Source: Atriophallophorus winterbourni (Eukaryota; Platyhelminthes; Trematoda; Plagiorchiida; Microphallidae). From it: 64,000 nt of DNA. The stretch spans positions 1 to 64,000 of the forward strand of contig JACCGJ010001824.1 in assembly GCA_013407085.1 (NCBI GenBank), written 5' to 3'. The position numbers and the translations under genes are program-made. The notes below the pieces were generated by a model. That model did not search any database and was not told where the DNA came from. It was given only the letters and a program-made list of their open reading frames with translations. This document shows, piece by piece, positions 8,240 through 59,673 of this stretch; the first letter of the stretch is position 1, and every line of letters starts with the position of its first letter.

Positions 8240-10740
8240 GACAGAGAAGAGGATTAGGTCAAGGTCAATCTTGGCTAAACCACATGTCCCTTAACAGCGT
8301 GCATTAAGGCATTCACACATGGTACAGGACACGCGATGCACAATGAACCACGTCCCACTGCTGTTCGCACTCACTAATCGATTTCGTCCCGAGGTCAATC
8401 TTTGAGAAAATAATTAAGTTCGCCCATAAAACCCGTAATAAAAGAGCAATCCTATTGGATAAACTCAATTATAAAGCATAAGGACGAAGATAAGTACACA
8501 CCTAGCTTTTATAGCTCAATCAATTAGCCACAACACTGAACTGAACAATTTTGTCCAGGTTGTCACTTCAAGCTGATTTGTTAATCGATTTCGTTGTCTG
8601 CGTGCTCATGATTTTGAATGTACATCTCTCTAACCGTTTCTAATAACACTTTATAAACTTGAATTATTACAGGTCACCGATTGATATCATCGTCTTTTTT
8701 GCGCTTCCTTGTCTTGCGTTATGTCGAGAAGTGGCGTTCTGCAGATCATTCGGAACTTCTAACGAGCACTCTCTATCATATATTTTTTTTCCCCACATAC
8801 GTGAGTGCTTATCAACGTATACCCGTTGCATTTGAACACATCCTCAAAACAGTAGTGACAATAATAATCTGCTAATTTTAATTTGTACGCATACAAAATG
8901 ACCCACAAGCACGTTAAAGTTGTATGACTCAAGTTTTCCACTATTAATTATAGCCACTTTCGCATTTAGGATATGCAAATTGTCAGCATGACATAATATG
9001 AATCTATTCGACAGGTTTTGCAACGGCTATACCACTATGGAGTTGTCGTTATTCCAGATAAATCCTCATTCCATGTGAAATCACGTTTTTTTAAAAAAAA
9101 CTGGGTGGATCTTACAGGAATTGATAGTATGAAAAGAAAAAATTCCTATATCTGAATACAACCTTGTTCGAGCTTACTATGGAAGCTTCTTCGATAGCTC
9201 GATATCGTCAAATATTATAGAGGCTCTATATCGTATTGCGTGAAGATAGCGCAGTCGCTCATCTCTTCACTTCGCTCTGAATAGTGAAATATCTTAATGG
9301 GTGTTGATGCTAAAAGCTTTCAAGAAACCTAAAACATCCCTCGGTGCTCTTAGGTGAAAGGAGGTAGTCACAAACCCATTGCCGTTTGTATTGCTGATTC
9401 TCCTGTTGATCCAACTTCACCAGCATATCTAAAAACCAGCTCCAATATGCAGTAAAGTTCTGGCCAGTTTCCCACATAGTTTGGTAATTTCGCATCCCAA
9501 AGTTTTTCGATCGTCTTCATAATTCGGAAGTTTCGAGTTGAGTGTACTGTCGCGCATTTCTGTTAATCGTTGTGGGGTTTGTTTTTGTACACTTAAAGGG
9601 TTTCCTCGCCGCTTGTACGAACGAACACTTGATTCGTGTATCCTGTTTTCTAGATCATTAAGAAAAAGCGTCCGGTGTTGAATTCAGTTTGGTTTCAATT
9701 GGTTGAAATTATGTGTGCTTTGTCTACTGGAATACAACTCCACATTTAAACATTGACTCCCAGAATTTTTCATATTTTTCCTGTGATACGGAATCACCAA
9801 ACAAACCGGAGTTATCTAAACAATATCACGGAAAAAAGTTTGATCCTCTTCAACCGAATACATTGCGATTGTTGGTTTTCTTATTTTCGACTTTGTCAAT
9901 ATTAAATTCACGCGGTCTAAATCATTACTGCCCATTATTCGAAATTAATCATTATAAGGAATATTAGCTTACCCGTAATGAACAATATACACCCAAACCT
10001 CTTGTAATCAACTCCAAATTTAACCACCGACATCCCAAGTTTTCGAGCGTTACGAGCATGAAATCTGGAAAAAGCTATGATTAGTTTCATCTGCGAGGTT
10101 GGTGAAAGTATAAATGCTCTAATTTTTATCCGATAGCGTCAATACTGGTCTATAACAATGTACACGAGTTCATTGCAGCGGATACTTTGCATACCCACTT
10201 AGGGAGCAATGACCCTATAAATGAAGAAGAATGATTCTGTTTGAAAAACTGGTCGTGGTGCGCTATGGGCAAATTGTGTACTGTATTCTAAGTAGAATGT
10301 GGAGGAAAATACGCGTGTATAAAATCTATAAGAAAATATATACTTCCGTATTATTGTGAGTGCTTCGCATTGCGTTACCGCTAACAATTATCATTTTTCT
10401 GCCATATAATTTTCTCGCTCGTATTGCTCGTTCGATATAAATCAAAGCAATCTAGTTTACCGAAAAGGAAGAGATTAGTAATCCGAAAACTTGTAATTTG
10501 TGGTCCCTCAACACGTGGGCTTTGTCAGACGTTCACGCAACGTTCGGGCGAGTGTGTGTTATGTTGTTTCAAACTAAACGGCACACGGCTTCATGTTGGA
10601 AAAAGTTAAGCAATATAAACTTACGTTCAGAATCATTACGGAATTATTTCGAAGGAAAATAATTCCTACAAACTTGCTTGGTTCAAGATACCGGATGCTG
10701 GCCACTTGTAGACCTGATATAAATATAGATATTTAAAAAT
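8240..10740. other. No gene recognised
   Basis: About 2.5 kb with only short open frames (for example 9310-9495 minus and 9713-9967 plus) and no motif I can assign. No second copy of any part was noticed in the window. Confidence 0.4.
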
Positions 10741-10859: not shown

Positions 10860-11640
10860 CAAATATTAAGTATTTTTGTTTATCCGAGAGCTCTGTGTTA
10901 CCATACAATTATCGGTTTACGATACAGTTTTGTTCCTGAGATATATTAACGACTTACAAATTTTAGTACTATCTGCTGTGCTTGACTTCACAGAAAGCGC
11001 TAAGATTTGGCGTAATACGATATCCATAGCTGAATGCCTAACCTGCACTGAGAACTAGACATGATTCATGGCTGGTCTCAAAAACGAATCGCCGCCTTTT
11101 ACTATATAATGTAGCTTATTATCATTAAACACCCCACTCAACAACAATATTTCATCGGATATATTGTTATTTAAACCGTCTCGTTCGAAAAGGATGTGGA
11201 TCCGATTATTCAGCCAGAATAATGGAACGCGACGCAAAGCTAAAAGCAACTTGGATCTCCTCAGTAAAGCTTTCGATTTGTTTTGACGGCAATATCATTT
11301 GGAAATTAATTTCAAGTATCATCATTCCCCCTTCGAATATGCCATACAAGTATTAGTTTCATTGTTGAAATAATATATATTGGAAACTTCGAGGCGCCAA
11401 ACAAAAATCCACGCCCTCGGATTGTCTAACCATCCACGAAGAAGGCTTGCATGACTATAAAACGAAATTAGACAAATTTTATTGCATTATTCGTTTCCAG
11501 AACACTTATATACTGTTTAATCTATGTTCTTATATTGTTTATACACTTAAATTTCAATTTTTACCATCCTATGGTTGTTGTTAAGCTTGTTGCTTTTTAG
11601 ACCATTAAAAACCTTGAATTACCTTGAATTACTGAAGATA
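10860..11640 (+). mobile_element. LINE 3' fragment with terminal tail
   Basis: The plus strand reads LFLRYINDLQIL then TESAKIWRNTIS near 10930-11030, which is a decayed LFLIYINDLP...FADDxKIWR block of an APE-type LINE; the FADD itself is lost. After a poorly conserved stretch the copy ends at about 11570-11635 in the same 3' terminus seen elsewhere in the window: a TGCTTTTTAGACCATTAAA block followed by short ACCTTGAATT repeats. The tail fixes orientation and the 3' end. Confidence 0.6.
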
Positions 11641-11759
11641 CATTCATCCTAAAACAAATTATCACGAGGATCACTAATTTTCATTTGGACAGAAAGTAAT
11701 CAAACAGTAAACTACAGACTAAATACTCATTTGCGTTCATTTTCATTACACATACACCA

Positions 11760-11801
11760 CCCTACGATCGGTTTCGTGCTGTTTGTACTGCTCAGCTAGG
11801 G
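11760..11801 (-). ncRNA. Decayed hammerhead ribozyme, second copy
   Basis: Same architecture as the copy 230 bases away. The core reads CTGAGCA instead of CTGATGA, stem II is GTAC/GCAC with one mismatch, GAAA is kept (11775-11772), and stem III is ACC/GAT with a mismatch. Stem I (CCCTA against TAGGG) still pairs at five positions. The core changes should abolish cleavage, so this is a worn copy of the same motif. Confidence 0.6.
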
Positions 11802-11989
11802 ACAGTAAAATCAGGATCCGCATGGGCTTGAAACAGTGGAGGAATGGTAAACAAGGAGCGCTTGTATGCCACTGTTGGATAAGGCTGGTACGACCAACCT
11901 GTTAAATCACGTGTCCAAACACATGTTTAAATGGGTTAAACCTATAACCATGAACCAAAATACTCATTTGCATGCATTTCCATCACACA

Positions 11990-12031
11990 CCCCACGACCG
12001 GTTTCGTGCTGTTTGCACTCATCAGGCAGGA
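11990..12031 (-). ncRNA. Type I hammerhead ribozyme, intact core
   Basis: In minus-strand sense: stem I strand TCCTGC, the conserved CTGATGA (12025-12019), stem II GTGC/GCAC closed by an AAACA loop, the conserved GAAA (12005-12002), and a minimal stem III ACC/GGT with no loop, followed by C17 at 11996. Then comes the other stem I strand GTGGGG (11995-11990), which pairs over six positions with the first (three Watson-Crick, three wobble). Cleavage is predicted between 11996 and 11995. All core nucleotides of the family are present. A stem III this short is typical of hammerheads in Penelope-like elements and retrozymes, which often act as dimers. Confidence 0.75.
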
Positions 12032-12049
12032 ATATGAAATCCAGAATTT

Positions 12050-13569: not shown

Positions 13570-14840
13570 ACCAGGCATCTGTTATACTTGTAATCCATGC
13601 AGAGAGAAAGTATCTAGTGATTTATCCAGAGTTGAAAACTCTGATCCACTTATGGAAAGACGTATGCTCGCTGTTCAGGTAAACCATAAACGGGTTGAAA
13701 ATGCGTTAGTGTCCTTTCAATCATTTCGTGTCAGAAAGCGCAAAAGCCAGTTGAAAACAGTCCTTAACCACGTGAACACTGCTTGCTTCAGAAATCAATC
13801 AAAGTCCCTTCCAACAACTCGGTACGACCAATGATACTGTGAAGCAGATCAGTAGTCAATCGAAAAAAGTGTTAAATTATCGGAGGATGTGTAGAAGCTA
13901 AAAGCGGAGAGTTTGAACACGAAAATTCTCGAAGAGACAAAAATGGAAGATCTGACGGTAATTTGTAGTAATATCATTGAATCAACTACGCCGTCGCTAA
14001 AGCAACGCGAAGCAGATGACAGGAAACATTGTAACGACCTTTGTCAAAGCTTATGTATCACTGCCTCTCCTGCGTCGTGGACCCGATTATTTAGACCCCC
14101 GAACTAACTTCATGCTAACTCACCGAGGTTACTACGTGTAGTACTAACGTCTGTGCAAGATGTAGAAAATATCTCGCTCGCCTCATCCATTTTAGTTGCA
14201 ATCAAATCCGCTGTAAGAATATTTCCCGATATTCCGTGGGAAGAATGACAAATTCGTCGTAATAATCCGGAACTAGCAAAAGAGGCTATAAATCGCCCAG
14301 TTGGTATCGTTCTTGGTGTGCCCAGTTCGAACGAAGAAGAATCTGGTAAGCAACTGCAGTGAATGAAGAATTTTGCGAGAAATCCTAGGTTTAAAGGACA
14401 TAATAACTATTCACGTAATGCGCCATAAGCCAAAAAAGTAAACGCAACTGCCTCCTCGAGTCAAGATATCATTCCGCACAGACGAAATGAATGATAGAAT
14501 ACTCGAGGCGTCATATCAATGCCGAAAACTAGCACATCCTGAAATTCGTATTCGGGCTGTATACGACATTAATCGCACGAACATGAATGTTCCCCAGATG
14601 ATTTCGCCACCCAGATATCCGCATGCACCCGAGACAAAAAATGTGAAGTAGCCGACCAATTCTGGGTTGGCGAATCCACTACTATGAGTTCTTTATCTGC
14701 CCCAAAAATAAAATCTCTAATATGCTGTTACACCCATGCTCAGGGCATTCTGAGCAAGTTTACTGAAATTTATTCACGTGCGACCTCTTGGGATTTGATT
14801 GCAGTGACAGAAACCTGGTTGAGTAATTCCGTTGTTCAGA
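13570..14840 (+). mobile_element. CR1-like LINE, 5' part: ORF1 and start of endonuclease
   Basis: Plus-strand reading gives a broken ORF1: CNPCRERKYLVIYPEL near 13600, a coiled-coil-like stretch near 13910-14000, and a C-terminal block near 14390-14640 (DIITIHVMRHKPK, PPRVKISFRT, CRKLAHPEIRIRAVYDI). From 14700 the endonuclease begins (CCYTHAQGILSKFTEIY, then WDLIAVTETWLSNS, holding the catalytic E of the VTETW motif). It stops near 14840, where a Penelope-like element is inserted in the opposite orientation, and resumes at about 16105. The element therefore predates that insertion. Stops and frameshifts are frequent. Confidence 0.65.
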
Positions 14841-16100
14841 TGGTGTTAGCCGAGCTTGTGTAGTTGTTGGTGGACGTTTCGTCATCAGGCTAGATGACAT
14901 CATCAGCAGAACTTCTTTCGAAGTGACTTGAAATTGGTATTCATTGGTTTTTATAAGGTCCGTCTGTCCATTCGCCATCACGCCCGTCGGTTGGTGGAAT
15001 TCATGTGTCCATCGCGTTTTCATTGGTCCATAGGTTGTAGCCAATTGAAGGTGCTGGTTAATCGATGTCGTTGTTGAGTGCCACGCTTCGATGAATTCTC
15101 GCGCTCGTCGGTCGTTTTCTTTGGCCAAAATCCTCGCGTTGTCCCAATCGAATTGATGTCCGAATTGATCAACATGTATTGAAATCAGTGACCTTGGGTC
15201 GTGCCTTCGTACAGCTAACCGGTGTTCGTGTATTCTTGTGCTTAGCTTGCGGCCGGTTTGTCCGATGTAGTTCTTCTCGCAATCTCTGCACGTAATCTTG
15301 TAGACAATATTCGATTGTTCTTCTTTCGCAAATTTGTCTTTCATATTGTTGAAGTGGTTGCGTAATATTGACACGGGTTTGTGCGCGACCTCTATTCCAA
15401 ATGGCCGAAGGACTCGAGCTGCGATTTCTGATATGTTCTGCACATACGAAAGAGCGCGTCTGACTCTGTTTTCATCATCGTTTCTGTGCTGGGTACGGTT
15501 GAACTTGTTGCGTAGTACGAAGCTTCTTGGGTATCCATTTCTCTGGAACACTTTGAACAAGTATTCTTCTTCTTGTCTTCTCAGTTCCGGCGTGCTGCAA
15601 TGTGTTGCAGCTCTTTTGAATAGCGTTCTAACGCAGCTGCGTTTATGGCTGGTTGGATGCTTGCTGTGATAGTTCAAGATTTGATCTGTGTGCGTGTTCT
15701 TCCTGTAGACACTGGTTTCCAAATTTCCTTCGCTTGTTCGTCTCACTTGAACGTCCAGGAATGTCAGGCAGCCGTCAGCTTCAGTTTCTCTGGTAAATTG
15801 GATTCCTCTGAATACACAGTTCAGTAGTCGATGTGATTCGTCCAGTTCAGTTCTTTTTATGATCACAAATGTATCGTCCACATAGCGGATCCATAAATTT
15901 GGCCGTATTATTGGTACAGCGATTCGTTCCAAACGTTGCATGACTGCTTCGGCAATTAGGCTGGAAATCGGTGATCCCATTGGTGTTCCTCGAATCTGCT
16001 CGTAGATTTTACCATTGAACTTGAAGTGTGTTTGCAGGCACAGCTCGATCAATTCCGTACACAATTCTGAACTCACAATCCCATACATAATGATTTACAG
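14760..16100 (-). mobile_element. Penelope-like element, 5'-truncated (RT and GIY-YIG)
   Basis: A 442-codon open frame starts at 16088. Residues 34-50 (RGTPMGSPISSLIAEAV) and 67-75 (IRYVDDTFV, the YVDD catalytic site) are the second half of a Penelope-type reverse transcriptase; the first half is missing. A linker rich in basic residues follows. Residues 261-345 are a GIY-YIG endonuclease: VYKITCRDCEKNYIGQTGR, then RIHEHR and REFIEAWH, with the expected Y, Y-I-G, R and E. An in-frame stop lies just upstream of the ATG, so this is truncation and not a missed start. The element portion probably ends near 14841; the last 25 or so codons read into the host LINE. It lies inside the endonuclease domain of a LINE on the plus strand. 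The ORF itself is undamaged. Confidence 0.85.
14873..14906 (-). ncRNA. Hammerhead-like core in the Penelope 3' region
   Basis: In minus-strand sense: CTGATGA (14906-14900), one extra T, a perfect six-base stem II GTCATC/GATGAC with a TAGCCT loop, then GAAA (14880-14877) and ACGTC, giving a minimal stem III and C17 at 14873. Penelope-like elements are known to carry type I hammerheads in their terminal repeats. Against it, a T sits between the core and stem II, and flanking sequences pair poorly as stem I (only two pairs). It also overlaps the coding sequence for about VLLMMSSSLMTKRP at the end of the ORF. Confidence 0.5.
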
Positions 16101-16104
16101 AAAA

Positions 16105-18672
16105 CATTTTACAGAAAACAAAAGGTGGCGATGTCCTCCTCTATTTATATGAAAGCATCAACTGCACCATACGTTTTTCTTCTGAGCTAGATGTCCTAGT
16201 GTTTAGCTCTATTGACCTGCACAATAACCGTAGGTGACTCATAGCATTGATTTATCGCCCTTCTTCATCATCTGCCGCGGACATTGCTCTAATTAACGCA
16301 ATGCATTTTGTCTTGAAGCTCCCCTACTCACATTCGCACCTGTTCGGCGATTGTAATGTACCGACAATTGCCACACGCATTACGGGTAATGATTTCTTCA
16401 AAAGCTTTCTTCAAGAAATGATGACTTGCGCCCTACTTTACAACATGTGCAACAGCCAACGCGATTTTTATCAGAACAAACCCATCTACCTTGGACCTCA
16501 TACTCACAAACTAAGAACTCATGATCTAATCTGTTTCTTATACAGCTCCACTAGGATTGAGTGATCATGTTGTCATGACACTTGATTATATCTATCAATA
16601 CCAGCCAGTAGAGAATAGTCAACGAACATATACAACTGTGAACCATGACTTTCTTTAAGCTTTTTATCACCGCCAATTGATGGGAATTCCTTGAACTCAC
16701 ATCAGCTCAGGAAATAAGGGAAACGTTTTACAACCAACTCCGTACCATCATTGATTTATCATCAAACATAAAAATAATAAGCGACAAACAGTGTCCAAAA
16801 AGCCTCTTAGGGGCAGTATGCGGAAATGTATGTGTAAACGTGACAAGACCTGGTATAAGTACTTGGTGCAACCAAACCTTATTGCAAATAAGTGTGTCTG
16901 CCTCATTCGAAATGATAGAAAATATTACCAAATCAGTCTAGTCAAAAAATTTGTTATGAATCCCACAGTATTGTACAAACACGCCAACGACCTCCGGAAT
17001 GTTAAAATGGGAATAAGGCCACTAGCCTCTGCTGCTGGCATAGTGACATCAATTAATGATTGTGTAAACGTTTTTCGACAATAATTTGCACCAGTAATCT
17101 CACAAGTGTTCGAACAGAGCTATGTTCCAGAAACTTGGAAAACTGCCTTGATTAGTCCCATCTACAAGGGTGGCGAGCGAAACAATCCGATAGGCTCACT
17201 AAACCTGATCTTACTGTCTTTACCTGATGACGGCAAACAGCCAGAAACCGGTAGTGGTCTGTAAGGGATGGGGATGTGATCACTACAGTACATATCGTCC
17301 GATAACTTTACTACCAGTGCTATCAAAAGTAATGGAGTCCATCATAGCTGATACCTTGTGGAATCACTTTAAGATTGATAATTTAATCTCCGAAGCACAG
17401 CGTGGATTCAGGAAAAAACGATCTTGCCTGACAAACTTGCTGTTAGCAAACGAAACCTGGTCTGAGCTACTGGACGCTGGCAACTCCTTAGACGTAATCT
17501 ATATTGATTTCTCAAAATCATTTGATCGTGTCAATCACGAACTGCACTTGTCGAAACTCTATGCATGAATTAACGAATTGTTAATATCTCGTGTGATGTA
17601 CGTGCGAGTGAAAAATGATATATCCGAGTCGACTCAAATTGCCCGTGGTGTCCCACAAGGATCAGCCCTCGAACAGCTCTTGTTTATAATATATATTAAC
17701 GACTTAGCTACTATAGTATAGTCACAAGTGCTTATTAATGCTGATGACGCAAAGCTTTGGCGCAGGATAAACTCCACAGCAGATATTCAGAACCTGCCTG
17801 ATACCCATTTAACGAAATACCACTGAATGCATCGAAATGCAGCTTATTATCACTCAACAAGTTCGACAGTCATGCAAAGCAATCAGGTCGTTTTGTAGCA
17901 TAATACAATAAGTAACATTGCTGATTCGCCTTCATATTTTTATGCCATCAGCAAACAGAAGCATCTTACAGTCGTTTCGTATTGGTAAATCGTTCATGGT
18001 ATACAAAAAGTCCTGTAAAAACATTAGCACTGCTCAGAAGGATCATCGGTAGGTTCCAGAAAGCAGGTACTCCCACGGATAATTAACACCCATATCAGGG
18101 CAACAATGGATTACGCTATTCAAGCATGGTCCCATGGTTGCAGAATGACATGGCCTTGCTGCAGTGCGTATACTACAACGCTACAAAACTGGTGACCGGA
18201 CCATACAACAGGCCATACGAGGAGAGGATTGCAACTCTGAAGCTATTTGACTTTTCGTAGCGTCGTGTCAGGGGTGACTTGATCCTGCTGTTCAAAATTC
18301 TGCATACAGTGGATCACCCACTTGAACTCCTGGATCATCGGCAAGAAGCACGTGCTAGAAGATCTCATGGCTAGAACTTACCTATTCCACACTCTAGATC
18401 AAATTGTTGAAGGTTCTTCTTTGCTGTTCGAGTTTGTTTTATATGGAACTCTCTGCCGTCGCATATCATGTGTGCATCAAGCCTAAACATGTTCATGGCT
18501 GAACTTTGCAAGTATATGTTGACCAAATCCCATCTCGTACCTCAAAACATAAGCTGACTTTCTTTATTGACAAAACTGCTTTGTTGTTTTTATGCATTCC
18601 CTATATATTTAATCTATATTTACTGTTAATGTATTTGCTTTGTTGGCCATTAATACTTTGAATTATTTTGAA
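16105..18672 (+). mobile_element. CR1-like LINE, 3' part: endonuclease end, RT and tail
   Basis: This continues the element cut by the Penelope insertion. LLYLYESINCTI follows at 16140, then ALIYRPSSSS and HLFGDCNVPTI (YRPPSS and GDFNxP blocks) at 16245-16370. RT boxes: WKTALISPIYKGGERNNP at 17140, TYRPITLLPVLSKVME at 17290, AQRGFRKKRSCLTNLLLA at 17395, IYIDFSKSFDRVNHE at 17500, GVPQGSALEQLLFIIYINDL at 17650 and NADDAKLWR at 17735, where FADD has become NADD. About 95 extra bases split the KGG and YRP boxes near 17190-17285. The C-terminal THIRATMDYAIQAW lies at 18090. The copy ends at about 18672 in TTGGCCATTAA followed by TTTGAATTATTTTGAATG. Confidence 0.75.
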
Positions 18673-19004: not shown

Positions 19005-19350
19005 AGAAGAAAAAGAAGGACGAAGAGCTTTTCGAAACTTTTCGAAATTTCAGCTTCGGACCAGCGGTAAAACAAAACAAATACTTTACAAGTTAGACAT
19101 AACAGAAAAATATTCGTAGAAAATATACACATGATATCAACGAGATTAATTCGAACGTAATTGTTGCCTTTGGCAAAGGTATAGTGCCGTTTCGGGATTA
19201 TTCAATAATATCATCATAAGAAATAGAGCATGCGTGTGAAATGATCTTGATGTAATGTTTGAGTAACACAAAGTCTTTTGAAAAAAGTGCGGGGAAAATA
19301 ACAGATGAGCAGTTTCGAATATGAGGTAATATACGAGAGAATATGAAGTG
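19005..19350. other. No gene recognised
   Basis: Possibly a worn upstream part of the minus-strand LINE at 18.7-19.0 kb; no motif supports it. Confidence 0.35.
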
Positions 19351-19354
19351 AGAT

Positions 19355-19475
19355 TGAAACATTGGAGGAATGGTAAAAAAGTTGCGATTGTATGCCACTG
19401 AATGATAAGGTTGGTATGACCATGTGTCTACATAGGGTTTAAATCTATGATCATGAACAAAAATGCGCCCATGTA
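19355..19475 (-). repeat. Fragment of the hammerhead repeat body, without ribozyme
   Basis: The plus-strand sequence from GGAGGAATGGTAAA through TGTATGCCACTG, GATAAGGTTGGTATGACC and GATCATGAACAAAA follows the body of the tandem unit at 11840-11965 base for base with scattered changes. Homology stops before the hammerhead, so this copy lacks the ribozyme. RNA-sense orientation is minus, as at 11.7-12.0 kb. Confidence 0.6.
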
Positions 19476-20690: not shown

Positions 20691-20890
20691 AAACTCGATC
20701 GAGATAAATAAGATGATGAGTGCAAACAGCACGAAACCGGCTGTGGAGTGTGTGTAATAGGAATGCATGCAAATATGCATTTTTGTTCATGATCATGAGT
20801 TCAAACCATATCCACATGTGTTTGGACACGTGATTGAACAGGTTGATTCTGCCAACCTTATCCAACAGTGGCATAAAAACGTAATTTGAA
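20690..20890 (+). repeat. Hammerhead-bearing repeat, plus-strand copy
   Basis: The sequence from the ribozyme at 20713 through GAATGCATGCAAAT, TTTGGACACGTGATT and CCTTATCCAACAGTGGCAT is the reverse complement of 11865-12025, with scattered changes. It extends past the body into unrelated sequence near 20885. The ribozyme (20713-20746) has ATGATGA in place of CTGATGA, intact GTGC/GCAC stem II with the AAACA loop, GAAA, and ACCGGCT in place of ACCGGTC, so it should be inactive. GAGTTCAAACC near 20798 is close to a pol III B box. Confidence 0.65.
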
Positions 20891-29408: not shown

Positions 29409-32400
29409 GACTGGCCACCCGATCTTTTCTCCCAGCTTCTGTCAGGCTCTGCGAATAAGGCGCGGTACGGTAAACGGTGAGTAGGCATTCTTAATACATG
29501 TCCCAACCATCGCAAGCGAGCAAGCATCAGCATTTCTCTCAGTCCGTGGCCACCTGGTCCTAACACCCGCTTGCAGACATCTATATTTGTAAACGATGCT
29601 GCCACCGAATGCGAGCAATTCTACGCAGGCAACGGGTATCAAAAACAGAAAGCCGACGGACATCTTCCGCTCGGATAGACCAGGTTTCGCAGCCATAAAG
29701 GAGTGTAGCACGCACCACTGCGTTGTACACTCGGCCTTTAGTATGGAGTGAAACATCGCGTCGACGCCACAGGTGGCGAAGGTTAGCAAACGCTGCACCC
29801 GCTTTGCGAACACGATGTGAGATCTCGTCCTCGACACAACCTCCAGCGGAGATACAACTGCCAAGGTAAACAAAGCTGTCGACCAATTCAAGATTGACAT
29901 CGCACACAGTTAGGTTTGGAAGAGAGCCGCTCCAATCCTGGGTAAGTGTTTTACACTTGTTAGGCGCAAAGCACATGCCATACCTTGAAGCTTCAAGTGC
30001 CAGGCGGTCCAGGGCTTGTTGCATTATATGAGGGTCATCTCCCAGAAGTGCGATGTCATCGGCATACTCTAGATCGGTCGCTCGCTCACCCGGCAGAAGT
30101 TCAACACCTGTGCCCACCAGGCCAGCTAAAGCTTTTCTCAGGACATCGTCGATCGCGAAGTTAAAAAGGAACGGCGAGATAGGGCAGCCCTGCCGCACCC
30201 CGCTGGAGATATTGAACGAGGACGACAATTGTCCGTACGCTCGAACCCTGCCCGAAGTTTGGCAATATAATGCTTTCAAGATCCAAACATACTTCTCGGG
30301 CACTCCATGTCTCAGTAGACAGTTCCAAAGACTTTCACGATCGATTGAATCGAATGCCGCTCGGATGTCAAGGAATACCACGATAGTTGGTTTACGAAAA
30401 GTGTGGCGTTGCTCCAGTAACTGACGGAGTGTGAAAATTTGATCTATGCACCCTCGGCCGGCACGAAACCCAGTTTGCTCCTCACGGATTTGCTCTTCCC
30501 GTTTGGTACTCAATCGGTGAAGCAGAATGGACGCCAGTATTTTAGGAGCTACTGAAATGAGACTGATACCCCGATGATTTTCACAGGAATCGCGCCGTCC
30601 CTTTTTGAAAATAGGAGCAATTACTGATTCTCTCCAAGGGATCGGAACGCGTTCCTCAGCCCATATGTTGGCGAACAGCGCTTGAAGTTCGCGAACTAAA
30701 GCGAAACCGCCATCTTTGAACAATGACGGAAGCAAAGCATCAGCACCTGATGCCCGATGGCGCTTAAGGCTCCGGACTACACTGTAAATCTCTGATTGAG
30801 TCGGAGCCTCAAGAGAAATCGACCATGGGGTACAGTGTTCCGTATTCTCGATATCAGTGGGTGCAGAAGGCCAGTTAAACTGTGCTTCAAAATGTTCTGC
30901 CCATCGCTCCATGCGTCTGTGCATGTTAAAAACTGGCAAACCATCTGCTTCACGTATCAACTCACTGATGCCTGGTCGCCCGCTTCCAGTTGTTCTGATG
31001 AGTTGGAACAATTTTCTGAAATTGCCTACAGCTGCCGCAGATTCCATTTCCGTAGCCTTAGAACTCCACCAACTTTCCCTGTCGGTTCTCAAACTGGCAA
31101 CCAGTTTACGTTTAATAAGCCTTCGTGACGCATCATGTATGCTATCAGCAGAAAGCAACCGACGTTGGTCCATTAATTGGAGAGAATTCGCAGAAACCCA
31201 GTGCTGAGCTACACGGGAAGTCAACCCACAACTATCCAACGCGGCTGTTTCCAAGGAGGTTTGAATCCCACTCCATTGGTCATCGATACTATTTTGGGGA
31301 ACTGTAGACAGATGCAGACTCAAATTGGCCTGAAACCCTCGGAGAACCGGGAGATCGTTAAGCCTAGCAACATTCAACTGCCTTGCAACATTTCTACGTT
31401 TCCCACCAAAACGCATCGAGAGCTTAGCACAGACTAACGCATGATCGGACTCTAGACAGGTGCCCCAGTAGGAGCGGCAATCTTGCACACTCCCTCGCCA
31501 GGAGTAGCTGATAGCAATATGGTCAATTTGCGTGAACAAGGCCGCCGATGGAGATCTCCAAGTGGAGCAGTGGCGCTTCGAATGGCGGAAGTTAGTGCTG
31601 GCAAGGTACAGTCTGTGCTCTGAGCACAAGTTAAGCAATCTTTCGCCGTTGTCATTACGATGACAATCGAGACCAAATCGTCCACCCACGAAATGCTCGT
31701 TTAAGGATAGACGGCCAACACGTGCATTCATGTCTCCAGCTAGGACAACGATGTCACTCCTCGATGCAAGTCTAATGAGTTCTTGTAATCTTCCATAAAA
31801 CTCATCCTTGTCACGTTCAGAGCTACAGTTAGTCGGTGCATAGGCAGCAACCACAAACAGGTCGCGGGATTGGTTGCGAAATCGGCCTTTTTTGCACGAA
31901 CCCTGTAGTCTTACTGCACAAAGGCGACTGTCGACTGGGATCCAGTCTAACAGTGCGACCTCAGCTCGCTCACTCAAGACGATTCCGACACCAGCTTGAC
32001 CAGATACCATGGCATCGTCATCAGTGGACAAACGTAGATAGTGTGACTTACGTAAGTTAGAAGGGTTAGACAATCGTGTAACTGAGCTAGAGTTATGCAT
32101 GCGTGTTTCCGACAAACAGCACACATCGACGTCGAGGCTATCAAGCGTGCGAGCCAAGGCTGCCTGCTGTCCGATGCTAGCTAAAGTCCGTACATTAAAC
32201 GCAGCTAATTTGAATGGTACGCGTGGGCGGAAGAACGCTCTGGAGGCATTCGAAGCAGGCAAAATATTCGAAGTAGCTGAATTTGGAAACCTCGATGAAC
32301 AAGCTGCACTTCTGTCAGGGCTAACCAAAGAACCACAAAACGGAAAACAGTTATTGAAAAAGTTTGCATGCAGTGTGAGATCATGTAAAGCATTTTGAGC

Positions 32401-32409
32401 AGAGAGCAA
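29409..32409 (-). mobile_element. RTE-clade (SR2-like) LINE ORF, nearly intact
   Basis: A 942-codon frame encodes the endonuclease and reverse transcriptase of an RTE element. Endonuclease: AAFNVRTLASIG, VDVCCLSETRMH (catalytic E), VVAAYAPTN, VLAGDMNARVG (D, N), QIDHIAI and ESDHALVCAKL. Reverse transcriptase: APIFKKGRRDSCENHRGISL, FRAGRGCIDQIFTLRQLLEQ, VVFLDIRAAFDSIDR, SSGVRQGCPISPFLFNFAID, LEYADDIALLGDD (catalytic YADD) and SFVYLGSCIS. All catalytic residues are present. The frame stops at 29581, where one frame change occurs; the other frame carries on with NIDVCKRVLG and RLRWLGHVLRM, the RTE tail, up to the gap. No in-frame ATG precedes the endonuclease, and the frame stays open above 32409, so the true start is uncertain. 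RTE proteins nick DNA and copy their RNA at the nick. Confidence 0.9.
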
Positions 32410-32727
32410 AGAGCTTGAGAGCGCGAGAGCACGGGATCTGTCATTTTTACCTTTATTTTCATAATTGCTTGTGGGCGTGATACTACCCGGTTGCCCAGGC
32501 CGAAGTAGGGGGTTAGCTTAGGGGGCCCCACCCGGAGCCTTTGGCTAAAAAGCCTGAACCACAAGGCAGTGGCTTGAGACTGAGTTTGTCTGACCTCTAT
32601 CCATCGACCTTCCTGGTATGAGTATCTCTGCTGGCACCAAAAGGCACCACCCAGTATAGCTCAATGGGTCATGAAGGTACACAAACCATCGCACCACGTT
32701 AAGGTCCAGTCTCAGCGCGACGGGCCT
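32410..32727 (-). other. RTE 5' leader
   Basis: GC-richer than its surroundings and continuous with the ORF. In minus-strand sense it contains GGCCTGGGCAACC at about 32503-32491 followed by GTATCACGCCCAC, very close to the corresponding block of the SINE-like repeat (GGCCTGGGCAACC, five bases, GTATCTTAGCCCAC). The leader ends where a SINE 3' half begins in the opposite orientation. Confidence 0.55.
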
Positions 32728-40719: not shown

Positions 40720-41040
40720 ATTTCGATTCAATGTAATTCAAGTTTTTCATGGTATAAAAAGCAACAAGCTAAACAACAACCATAGAATAGTAAAAATTGA
40801 AATGTAAGTGTACAAAAAGATGAGAAATTAGATTAAGCCGTATACAAGTGTTCGGGAAACGAATAATTCAAAAAATCATTTAATTTTTTTAAATACATGC
40901 AAGCTAGTAAAGTGAGCAACGGTTGAAGGTAAACTTTTCCAAGTAAAACAGACACGGACAGAGTAAAATTAACTTCTACAGTTCAGGCGGGAATAGGGTA
41001 CCGCCGGCACATATCCATGGGTCCGATAATTTATTGTATC
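40720..41040 (-). mobile_element. LINE 3' end (C-terminus, 3' UTR, tail)
   Basis: Minus strand: RLNCRS then FYSVRVCFTWKSLPSTVAHF near 40995-40925, followed by HVFKKIK and the 3' UTR, ending near 40725 with the word TACCATG and AACTTGAATTACATTGAATC. Closely related to the two copies at 25.35-26.27 kb. A second LINE, in the same orientation, starts immediately above it. Confidence 0.65.
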
Positions 41041-55759: not shown

Positions 55760-56877
55760 ATGCCTAAAGTTTCATATCCCTGCATTTCAATTGAATGTGG
55801 TAAGAAGGTTGTGAAAGGCATAGCTTGTGATGTGTGCCAGAGATGGGCGCATCCAAAATGCTCTGGCATTCTTGCCAAGCATTATGAAACTTATTGTAAA
55901 AATAGTTTCATGGAATGGGTATGTTGGGAGTGTAAGAGAAACGCCAGGGAAGTATTCCTGTGGACCTCCGCTAGTATTTTAAACAATGTTGAGGCAAATA
56001 GTAAGAGTTCTCCGTTGTCCTACGCCGAGGTCGTAAGAATAAGAACAACCCCGTGAACAAAACCCGGCCCTGCCCGCAGTACCATCAATAAGAATAAAAA
56101 AGCAACACAGGGGGGAAAAGAACCCAAAAAAAGAAAACCGTCGATAACGGTAAATGTCCGGTAATAACACAGCAAGCTAACTACGTTGCTTTAGAAAGGC
56201 AAATAAATGCCTTAGCTGAGCAAGTTAGTAAGCTTGCTGCACCCCACAAAATGGCGGAAACGAGGCCATCTCGTACTCTCCTCATACTAAATAGGGAAGA
56301 GCCGCTGATTCGCGAAAGCAAATCCCGGCGCCAAATGGACCGTTCCAGGGTTCAAGATATTTTGCGCATGGCAGGGCTAATTAACTGCCAGGTAAAAAGG
56401 GTCCATCGTGTAGGCCGGTGGAACCCAACTGTAAGTAGCGCTCGTCCGATCTTGGTAGAATTCATGAACCAGCAGGACAGGGATACGCTTCTTTTAAAAA
56501 GTGCTTACCTTGAGCGCTACACAAATGGGCGATTCAAAGTTGTCCAAGATAAGGGGCCTCAACCACATTTTCATGGAAAGCGTTCAAAACGCCCATGACT
56601 GGCTTGAAAACTCCCATAAAAGGGATCAACCTTAGCCACCATAAAATGTTTAAGTCATCTGCGGTAGTTGTCATTGAAGATGTACTCCAAAATGGGCCGC
56701 CAGTAGAATACGAGCGCATGAAAAACTCGCTTTTCAGTAAGCTTCTGAACGAGGAAAATCTATGTACAACTGCCATTAGGCCGGTGCAAGCTCGTTCGCA
56801 AGGGCAGTCTAGCCACTTATCAACTTCTCCGGTTTCAAAAAACGGGGTGCTCCCACCCCGAGTAAAGTTAGTTTAAA
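55760..56877 (+). pseudogene. ORF1 of the long CR1-like LINE (PHD-like finger)
   Basis: Starts at an ATG at 55760. Residues 8-60 hold spaced cysteines and a histidine (C-x5-C, IACDVCQRWAHPKCSGI, then VCWECK), a PHD/zinc-finger arrangement seen in ORF1 of CR1 elements. A TGA at 56054 interrupts; a lysine-rich stretch follows, then after a frame change VALERQINALAEQVSKLAA, a short coiled coil. From 56251: RTLLILNREEPLIRESKSRR, ILRMAGLINCQVKRVHRVGR and RPILVEFMNQQDRDTLLL, an ORF1 block shared by many flatworm LINEs. A last frame (56595-56876) overlaps the start of ORF2. Two or three breaks; otherwise well preserved. ORF1 proteins of this class bind the element RNA (family knowledge). Confidence 0.7.
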
Positions 56878-59673
56878 ATGTGCGCAGAATAGAAATACCC
56901 GTGTACTGTACACAAATGCTTGCAGTATACGTAATAAATGGGGCGAGCTGCAGCTTGCTGCACTGGAAAACCAGGTCGACATAATTGCCATCTCCGAATC
57001 ATGGTTGAAACCAGATGATCATGTTCCGTCATTTGTATCAACTAAGTATTCCATCTATCGTCAGGATAAGGATACTGGTGCTACGGGAGGGGGAGTGGCA
57101 ATTATGATAAACGAAGATCTCCCCCACCGTGAGACATCGATAAAGATCGCTTCTCACTCAATCCAACTAACATCGGTATTTCTTACTGTCGCTAGAAGAA
57201 GACTGGCACTTGCATGTGCTTATAGAAGCCCGACTGCTTCATCATTAGACGACCAATTACTGATGGACACATTGGAAGTACTAAAAGGGCAATGCAACGC
57301 ATTACTAATTGTCGGAGACTTCAATCTCCCGGGCATTGATTGGTGTACTGAAATTTCTTCACCAGGGTCAGTTGAGTCGCAATATCTAGACTGGTTTCAT
57401 GTCGGGGCCTTTTATCAACATGTCAGGGAACATACAAGGTTTAGGACAGGACATACTCCGTCAACTTTAGATTTGGTTCTATCGTCTCATGAAAGAGATA
57501 TTTATGGAATCAAATACCTTTCGCCACTAGGCAAGAGCGACCACGCTGTAATTCTTCTTGACTGGACTTTAGTGCATCCTAGTCCTCAAGTAAAGATGTC
57601 CCGCAACTTTGGTCGAATGGACATCGTCCAACTACAAACTAAAGCAATGAATCTAAGTTGGGAACCAGACGAATTAGAACCTAGTGTAGAAATCAGGTGG
57701 AATATTATAAAAGGGCACCTTTTACAACTACAGGATGATTTTGCTCCTCTACAACCAGTGAGAACGCGAGGAAAACCACCCTGGTGGAGCGCGTCTATTC
57801 GCAAGGCTATTAGATGCCGTGACCGTAGCTGGAGGGCGTACAAATTCTGTGGAACTCACAGATCTAGACTGCAGTACATACAGACCAGAAATTCAGCTGT
57901 TGCGCTGCAAAGGAAAGCTAAAAGGGACTTCGAATCCCGACTTGCCAAAAAAGCAAAGATTAACTTGAAAGCTTTTTATGGCTATGTTCAGTCCAAGCGA
58001 TCATTAAGAGAAGAAATAGGTACGTTAGTGCTGGACGATGGCAATACGGCTTTGACTGCACCGGAAAAAGCCGATGCGTTGCATTCATTCTTCTGCAGTG
58101 TTTATCGGCGCGATTCAGGTAACTGTTTAGAAACTCACGAGTGCAGAGCACCTCCCTTTAGCTCGGTGGAGGTTAATCAGGAAATGGTCACCACAGTTCT
58201 GTCGCAGCTGGACAAAACTAAGTCGGCTGGCCCCGACGGCATACATCCGGCTATTCTTCAACCGCTCGCGAATATAGTTAGCCTTGCAATCAGAAATCTT
58301 TTCGAAGCTACCTTACTCCAGGGTATACTACCGGATGATTGGAAACGAGCGGCGGTAATAGCCATATACAAAAAGGGTCCCATTTCGGATGTACGCAACT
58401 ACAGGCCAGTAAGCCTGACAAGCATTCTTTGCAAGTGCTTGGAAAAAATCATTCGGCACCAGGTATGTAAACATTTGGTAGCCAATTCCTTACTATCCGA
58501 TGCCCAGCACGGATTCTGGAAAGGAAGGTCCTGCCTAACCAATCTTTTAAGCTTTCTGGACGAAGTGACATTACGCCTCGATGAAGGGAGAGTAGTCGAA
58601 GTCTGCTATCTTGATTTTCAAAAGGCATTTGACTCGGTGAACCATAGGTACCTTCTGCACAAACTAAGTATGTGTGGCGTCACAGGTGACCTACATCGAT
58701 GGTTAGACAGCTTCTTAACTAATCGCACTAACTATGTTAGAATTGCAGGGGAGTGCTCGCAGGAATCACTGATTCTCAGTGGAGTGCCTCAAGGCTCGGT
58801 GCTTGGTCCATTACTTTTTCTTATTTTTGTAAACGACCTGGCAGCGTGCTTGAGTTCACGCTGCTTCCTGTTTGCTGATGATGTTAAGATCCTAGGAACC
58901 GACAGTAGAGATACGCTTATCTCTGATTTAGAAAAGTAATCGAGTGGACAAAGACCTGGGACTTGCCACTAAACCTGGGGAAGAGCTGTCTTCTGACGAC
59001 TGATTTAGCGACAACCCAACTAGAAGTTGGTGAAGGAACTATCAGAATAGCGGCTGCTCAGAAAGTGAAGGATCTTGGCATTACTATAACAGGCGATTTT
59101 AAATGGGCTACTCAATGTGCCGAAGCTGCAAACAAGGCTCGCAGAGAATTGTTCAGACTTCGCTCAGCGTTATCTTGCCGAAAACCTTCAATCTTCATCC
59201 CCTTATACAAAGTAGTCGTGCGGCCTCACTTGGAGTACTGCGTTCAATCCTGGGCACCGTACTTAAAAAAGGATATAGCATGTCTCGAAAGGGTCCAGCG
59301 CCTTGCGACTAGGATGGTTGAGGGTCAGGCAGGTAAAACTTATGAGGCTAGACTCAAGGACCTCGGTTTGTTCTCACTAAAGAGACGGCGGCTGCGAGGT
59401 GACCTAATAGAAGCCTTCAAGATTCTAAAGGGTCTTACAGGTGATAATATTACTGAAATCCTTAAACTTGCACCTAAAGCAGCTACAAGAGGTAATTCCA
59501 TGAAACTTCTTAAGAGTAGGCCCAGGTTGCTGGCACGTGAGCACTTTTTCAGCAACCGTGTGGTCAACTTCTGGAACAAGCTCCCAGATTGTATAGTAAG
59601 CCTCCCAAATGTGTTGAGCTTTAAAAGGGAATTAGACGTTAAATGGTCTATCATATTTCCGCATATTGTCTAA
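56830..59673 (+). mobile_element. ORF2 of the long CR1-like LINE (endonuclease and RT)
   Basis: Best preserved LINE protein here. Endonuclease: VLYTNACSIRNKWGELQ near 56905, VDIIAISESWLKPDD (catalytic E), GATGGGVAIMIN, LLIVGDFNLPGIDW and LGKSDHAVILLDW. Reverse transcriptase: KTKSAGPDGIHPAILQPLAN near 58215, NYRPVSLTSILCKCLE, AQHGFWKGRSCLTNLLSFLD, VCYLDFQKAFDSVNHR, ILSGVPQGSVLGPLLFLIFV and CFLFADDVKILG near 58870. The frame stops at 58937 where an A run is one base shorter than in the sister copy at 49.9 kb; the next frame continues with WTKTWDLPLNLGKS, VVRPHLEYCVQSWAPYLKKD and FFSNRVVNFWNKLPDCIVSL to a stop at 59671. The 3' end is ATTGTCTAATAAAAAACTTT. Catalytic residues are complete, so only that frameshift breaks ORF2. 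Confidence 0.88.

Follow-up and report, generated by a model that had tools for sequence, protein, structure and literature searches.

Metazoan non-LTR retrozymes, as described in the available part of Cervera and de la Pena (2020, PMC7229834), are small non-coding tandem repeats of about 170-400 nt which carry a type I hammerhead ribozyme, occur as dimers to long multimers and coexist with Penelope-like elements (PLEs); all of these traits are shared by the repeat family analysed here. That PLEs supply the enzyme which moves animal retrozymes is a proposal made in the same part of that source, where they are named as strong candidate helpers. PLEs and Terminons themselves were reported, in the portions of PMC7761336 and PMC6155905 available, to possess minimal hammerheads with a loopless or absent helix III, arranged in tandem and cleaving as dimers, and our family is alike in the first two respects and, by prediction, in the third. 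Hammerhead repeats of flatworms, as ours are, have also been described in schistosomes as Sm-alpha/Sj-alpha and W-elements, and for one W-element monomer a target-site duplication (TSD) was suggested (PMC2770079, PMC8490949, as far as the accessible text goes).

The window, by which we mean the whole analysed stretch of 64 kb, is contig C1607 of a genome of 537 Mb in 15,840 contigs. Positions 12031-11990 of its minus strand read TCCTGC-CTGATGA-GTGC-AAACA-GCAC-GAAA-CCGG-TC/GTGGGG, the slash marking the predicted cut. The earlier note had considered this an intact hammerhead, and indeed the core is complete, stem II consists of 4 bp, stem III is a loopless CCGG and stem I has the claimed six pairs, three of which are G-U. 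Scanned on both strands with a descriptor, the 64 kb returned this single site; as a control, 3 of 100 first-order Markov shuffles had any descriptor hit. The decayed second hammerhead was also found where it had been placed, 230 bp downstream in the same orientation, with a broken core. The statement that the repeat body matches nothing in the window was wrong, as three further copies are present. With units numbered so that u1 is the base directly after the cleavage site, the features around the hammerheads are:

11990 to 12031, minus strand: minimal type I hammerhead, intact, predicted cut at 11996/11995
11760 to 11801, minus strand: second hammerhead, decayed, with core CTGAGCA and a G-G clash at the base of stem I
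11721 to 12047, minus strand: repeat copy of 1.39 units (u179 to u38), 88% in the alignment to the family unit
11721 to 11723, minus strand: 3' end of the insertion at family end site 1, about 38 nt beyond the second (decayed) cleavage site
20714 to 20881, plus strand: second copy, hammerhead remnant and body (u202 to about u137), 81%
17204 to 17262, plus strand: third copy, hammerhead variant with GGC/GCC stem II and GUA cleavage triplet, 85%
19349 to 19464, minus strand: fourth copy, body without hammerhead, from the alignment to the unit

The third copy lies, by eye, inside LINE reverse-transcriptase sequence, and a similar hammerhead variant occurs in locus L004. Long LINE frames with endonuclease and reverse transcriptase domains were seen at 29581-32517 (minus strand) and 56813-58939 (plus strand), and a different dispersed repeat at 11445-11629 and 40726-40904 (84% identity, opposite orientation). 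Loci L009 and L051 were rejected as independent copies of the window, their identity of 99.7-99.9% over about 6.8 kb being that of a haplotig or duplicate. Where the window has 8788-8797 and L051 has 774-1458, the near-identical contig carries about 680 additional bases, perhaps a polymorphic insertion between haplotypes. No TSD of the window copy was detected (tested as L009), and the copy looks inactive. Its downstream ribozyme is broken, therefore release of unit RNA by this copy alone is not expected.

At the curated Rfam thresholds nothing in the window matched, and a permissive search detected both hammerheads below the cut-offs, the first with HH9 (25.4 bits, E 0.0017, cut-off 52) and the second with RF00163 (17.7 bits, E 0.81, cut-off 34). 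The window copy, with its loopless CCGG stem III, is missed at the Rfam cut-offs. According to the earlier note, a covariance score below threshold, or genome copies with a random core and never in tandem, would speak against the ribozyme. At the level of the family neither is the case: one of seven sister hammerheads from four loci reaches the RF00163 cut-off of 34 with 34.9 bits (the others score 32.9 to 21.4), and copies across the genome stand in tandem and keep their cores.

A search of the genome with the unit gave 3974 first-look candidates, of which 40 were scored and yielded 119 matches, so that thousands of family copies are plausible. The unit is a dispersed, non-coding repeat of about 230-237 bp which also occurs in tandem. 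Solo inserts comprise about 0.5-2.4 units, and arrays (L012, L018, L021, L026, L038, L040) reach about 14 units within the fetched stretches, which they often overrun; length and copy arrangement are thus those of the short tandem units of about 170-400 bp, in dimers to multimers, by which metazoan retrozymes are recognized. Loci such as L019, L037 and L047 each contain two recognisable hammerheads one unit apart, and the arrays contain many. The proposal that such a pair would release a unit-length RNA is in accordance with these loci and with the arrays as far as the family is concerned, and does not apply to the window copy. The consensus hammerhead from 82 units is CCTAC-CTGATGA-GTGC-AAACA-GCAC-GAAA-CCGG-TC/GTGGGG, with one further C in front, and each unit has one such type I hammerhead, as in metazoan non-LTR retrozymes. 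When two units are joined in tandem, the longest run without a stop codon measures 108 codons in the antisense and 82 in the sense direction; the unit has no long reading frame and neither the reverse transcriptase nor the GIY-YIG endonuclease that a PLE would have. Its GC content is 46.5% (43.7% in the window copy), compared with less than 45% given for metazoan retrozymes in the accessible part of PMC7229834. Among 25 dispersed units, mismatches to the consensus number 7/300 in the core and 348/4750 in the body, a body figure inflated by subfamily differences, hence these sequence counts only suggest constraint on core positions.

Since the CCGG stem III has no loop, it cannot form inside a single hammerhead. 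Two consensus hammerheads cofold into a double hammerhead through ACCGGU/ACCGGU at -40.1 kcal/mol, with 6 inter-strand pairs in stem III and 12 in stem I predicted, and the minimum free energy fold of the consensus monomer (-18.0) differs from a hammerhead. The consensus ribozyme is therefore predicted by folding to work as a dimer and not as a monomer. In the cofold of the window copy's own fragment the intermolecular stem III is kept and stem I is reduced to 1 + 1 pairs.

The ends of the dispersed copies are informative on how they were inserted. Of 47 3' ends, 34 fall in two intervals, u34-51 (28/47) and u143-155 (6/47), the two clusters lying roughly 40 nt and 147 nt beyond the cut (u40 and u147), while only 5/47 of the scattered 5' ends do so. 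The two intervals together cover 31 of 230 unit positions and were defined after viewing the data, so the 5' ends serve as their control. Some of the 13 remaining 3' ends (L017, L022, L027, L075) shift into or beside the clusters after trimming of TSDs by eye. The count omits segments of less than 84% identity, shorter than 50 bases or terminating at a stretch edge, and redundant loci were removed before it (L010, L015, L023, L030, L031, L032, L045, L048, L049, L051, L091); L048, another stretch of L020's contig, was among them though its status as a duplicate is unproven. The first sampling was biased to long copies (more than 1.3 units) and u40 ends, and the offsetting sample, anchored at u62-131, favours short u147 copies. 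Solo inserts end at either site, and the idea that u147 is reserved for the second strand was refuted by solo u147 inserts (L102, L109, L110, L114, L117, L122).

In the first sample a TSD score of at least 9 was reached by 11/22 insertions, compared with 10/462 cross-pairings; this sample retained L032, a near-duplicate of L013, beside L013, and without L032 the count is 10/21. In the second sample, in which 22 of 30 loci were tested, the remainder touching the stretch edge, and L123 (which resembles L043) was retained, the numbers were 9/22 and 18/462, with medians of 7 and, for the control, 6. About half of the insertions lack a clear TSD. Examples of TSDs are:

L019: TTAGTCACCC
L027: TGACTATCCATCT
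L036: TAAGGAATGAACA
L113: AAGCACAAAGTG

Target-primed reverse transcription is marked by such traces: 3' ends in clusters, 5' ends that vary, and TSDs. An insert that spans more than one unit and runs across the cleavage site requires a template that is circular, or else multimeric and uncut.

Many copies also lie beside an inverted one. Among 83 loci, pairs of copies on opposite strands, no more than 30 bases apart, were head-to-head in 25 cases and tail-to-tail in none, L121 and L123 having been additionally removed as redundant for this count. Pair ends were read by eye off the alignments, and 18 pairs were counted as clean. In 15/18 of these one outer end is near u40 and the other near u147; none has the same site twice (0/18), and three combine u41-48 with a different position, namely L013 (48/217), L104 (41/about 113) and L125 (42/88). 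If site choice is assumed to be independent and equal, 15 mixed pairs out of 15 clean two-site pairs give p of about 3e-5, a value that depends on that equality and on the selection of clean pairs. In the three exceptions target and RNA match, by eye, over 5-7 nt at the odd end, as they would if annealing had primed it. Of the seven pairs set aside, four (L041, L044, L112, L118) were degraded or ambiguous, and three (L103, L126, L129) reached or came close to the stretch edge with one end; in the alignments 0/7 of them show the mixed pattern, which is therefore seen in 15/25 of all pairs. Their ends are:

L041: 148/135
L044: 3/55
L112: about 154/124
L118: 149/133
L126: 136/near the stretch edge
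L103 and L129: u148-149/outside the stretch

L041 and L118 could be same-site pairs. Taken together, partial tandem copies, a head-to-head copy, TSDs and two 3' ends, all present in the window family, are the insertion habit of PLEs.

A PLE is also present in the window:

14831 to 16059, minus strand: PLE, 5'-truncated, Pfam RVT_1 E 3e-6, 27.6 bits (cut-off 29.6)
14873 to 14906, minus strand: hammerhead-like motif of the PLE, overlapping the ORF start, with a poor stem I and an extra U before stem II

Pfam matched the reverse transcriptase alone, and a GIY-YIG-like C-terminus was read by eye. Among the best 120 of 780 PLE relatives three carry the GIY-YIG domain PF01541, and where named these 120 are mostly from parasitic flatworms, with some from sharks. 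The hammerhead-like motif may be inactive. The window PLE has many relatives in the genome (95 scored matches, out of 13,403 candidates). Some of them, in L064-L069 (C13126, C2474, C6359, C13282, C14597, C9552), form head-to-tail arrays that repeat every 2531 bp or so, and several frames there are open for more than 800 codons. A strict hammerhead was found in none of 18 PLE loci scanned, all of one PLE family, which have the relaxed motif alone, at the ORF start. Counted from the C17-equivalent of this motif, 28 downstream ends of PLEs are at +42 to +47 in 10 copies and at +72 to +90 in 15, two continue in tandem (L057, L099) and one is at -138 (L061); all of these positions are approximate because the zero point is a poor hammerhead. 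The window PLE ends at +42. L069 holds a head-to-head PLE pair with ends at about +43 and at +82 to +87, for which no TSD was detected. The start sites of the PLE (CTGAACA) and of the retrozyme (TTTTG, CCTTG) have no clear common motif, and the window PLE may therefore not be the helper. We also considered whether the window element is a pseudo-LTR (pLTR) of the PLE 2.7 kb away and rejected it, as the remaining window copies are not placed on either side of that PLE and occur in both orientations.

The genome harbors another hammerhead family as well. Of 32 RF00163 matches (74 of 96,317 candidates scored), 27 are above the cut-off, and the eight fetched (L001-L008) belong to a Sm-alpha-like family with canonical type I hammerheads and CTCGAG in stem III, for example:

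L008, 1300 to 1650: Sm-alpha-like copy
L005, 1424 to 1871: Sm-alpha-like copy

At least one other RF00163 match, at C598, adjoins a copy of the window family. Most Sm-alpha-like ends are at +77 to +92 past the cut, those in L007 and L008 at +110 to +113, and in L002 and L005, by eye, near there. Head-to-head pairs were found in L001, L002, L005 and L007, by eye with two different ends in the last three and the same end twice in L001. The automatic TSD test scored 10 for L001 and 11 for L002, and found none in L005 (5) and L007 (7); longer TSD matches were read by eye farther out in the latter two. A tRNA-like head, GGTTCGAATC, was discerned by eye in this family, and ARAGORN reported none in the three Sm-alpha-like copies tested, nor in the window unit. 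Sm-alpha, to which the window repeat had been likened, is thus not its closest kin: a separate Sm-alpha-like family exists, and the unit has a different hammerhead, of the minimal PLE type.

We consider it probable that the window family is a non-autonomous retrozyme with a minimal PLE-type hammerhead, and that it moves by target-primed reverse transcription in the manner of PLEs, with circular or multimeric RNA as the template. The helper's identity, the circular RNA, cleavage as a dimer and ribozyme activity are parts of this reading which we infer. In oligomeric transcripts two hammerheads would pair through the palindromic ACCGGU and cut themselves into units, which a host ligase would circularise. 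A PLE-type enzyme would nick both target strands and begin reverse transcription at the internal sites u40 and u147, one start giving a solo insert and two starts a head-to-head pair, usually with one end per site. Copying for more than one round of the circle, or along a multimer, would give inserts longer than a unit. A stop about 40 nt past the cleavage site would leave the last hammerhead complete, and for that reason a new insert of more than about 1.2 units would have two ribozymes and could release unit RNA again. A more specific version, in which each circular RNA has two start sites, one for each protomer of a PLE dimer, and both nicked strands are extended round the same circle, is held only tentatively and is on balance doubtful. 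The pairs of end sites are about +43/+80 in the PLE, about +83/+110 in the Sm-alpha-like family and +40/+147 in the window family. If this version is true, the tendency to one end per site would account for three things at once: Penelope's optional tail, the inverted pairs, and the movement of three families with hammerheads. A need for cleavage or circles is opposed by findings in Anolis PAc, where elements with a mutated hammerhead could still insert and RNA that had not been processed appeared to be the chief substrate (PMC11167929). The set-aside pairs and the like start sites of the two strands in PAc also weigh against the two-site reading.

The same footprints could be left by LINE-type machinery with ordinary twin priming, the hammerhead serving RNA processing alone. 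LINE reverse transcriptases are present in the window, twin priming yields inverted and truncated L1 inserts with TSDs (PMC2837659, in the text available), and the odd ends of L013, L104 and L125 at short target-RNA matches, read by eye, are what it predicts; two internal 3' ends and mostly mixed pairs, however, fit the habits of PLEs better (PMC3846280, in its accessible part, and PMC11167929), and we regard LINE machinery as rather unlikely. It is improbable that the pieces are torn-off pseudo-LTRs of an undetected full-length PLE with a CCGG hammerhead. The repeat ends do act like PLE ends, and minimal loopless hammerheads are of PLE type (PMC7761336, from the part at hand), but arrays and dimers consist of the unit following itself head-to-tail, with no coding sequence, and the scanned PLE loci of the one family lack a strict hammerhead. 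Still less credible is a satellite spread by recombination or unequal exchange, with the dispersed pieces as array fragments: the long arrays of L012, L021 and L040 would be in its favour, and it is opposed by the clustered 3' ends, TSDs and head-to-head pairs of dispersed copies. The probability that the hammerhead match arose by chance is practically nil. Although the curated Rfam thresholds are unmet in the window, chance is refuted by the family alignment, with a core conserved over 82 units and a sister copy above the Rfam cut-off, and by the rarity of hits in shuffles.

We can conclude that the repeat in the window belongs, with near certainty, to a real retrozyme-like family carrying a PLE-type ribozyme motif, for which PLE-style insertion from two sites and on two strands is the reading we favour. 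In titles and beginnings of abstracts, a search with most of the subscription literature outside its reach, we found no published report of the two-site pattern in retrozyme insertions. The footprints translate into concrete predictions for PLEs as helpers: two defined start sites and extension of both target strands, for the most part with a different site on each. A possible reason also emerges from them why the tail of Penelope is optional and why a hammerhead is kept shortly upstream of the start site.

In comparison with metazoan retrozymes, the text available of PMC7229834 reports no clustered 3' ends, TSDs or inverted pairs, all of which are found here, and describes the hammerheads of most invertebrate retrozymes as cleaving well as monomers, whereas the loopless stem III of the window family is predicted to require a dimer, as in amphibians. 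Unlike PLEs and Terminons, the unit encodes no reverse transcriptase or endonuclease. Inserts of Penelope (PMC3846280, in the portion at hand) are a close parallel, with a partial tandem and an inverted copy, TSDs of 8-10 bp and an optional tail at one inverted pLTR, as is Anolis PAc, in which cutting and extension affect both strands of the target and the tail is bounded by two internal start sites (PMC11167929). The hammerhead-like motif of PAc overlaps the ORF start, in the same way as that of the window PLE (PMC11167929). PAc start sites show no strand difference (PMC11167929), unlike the mixed pairs of the window family. Finally, Penelope is autonomous, with start sites 30-40 apart, while the window family is a unit of about 230 nt with sites about 107 nt apart (PMC11167929 and the available part of PMC3846280).
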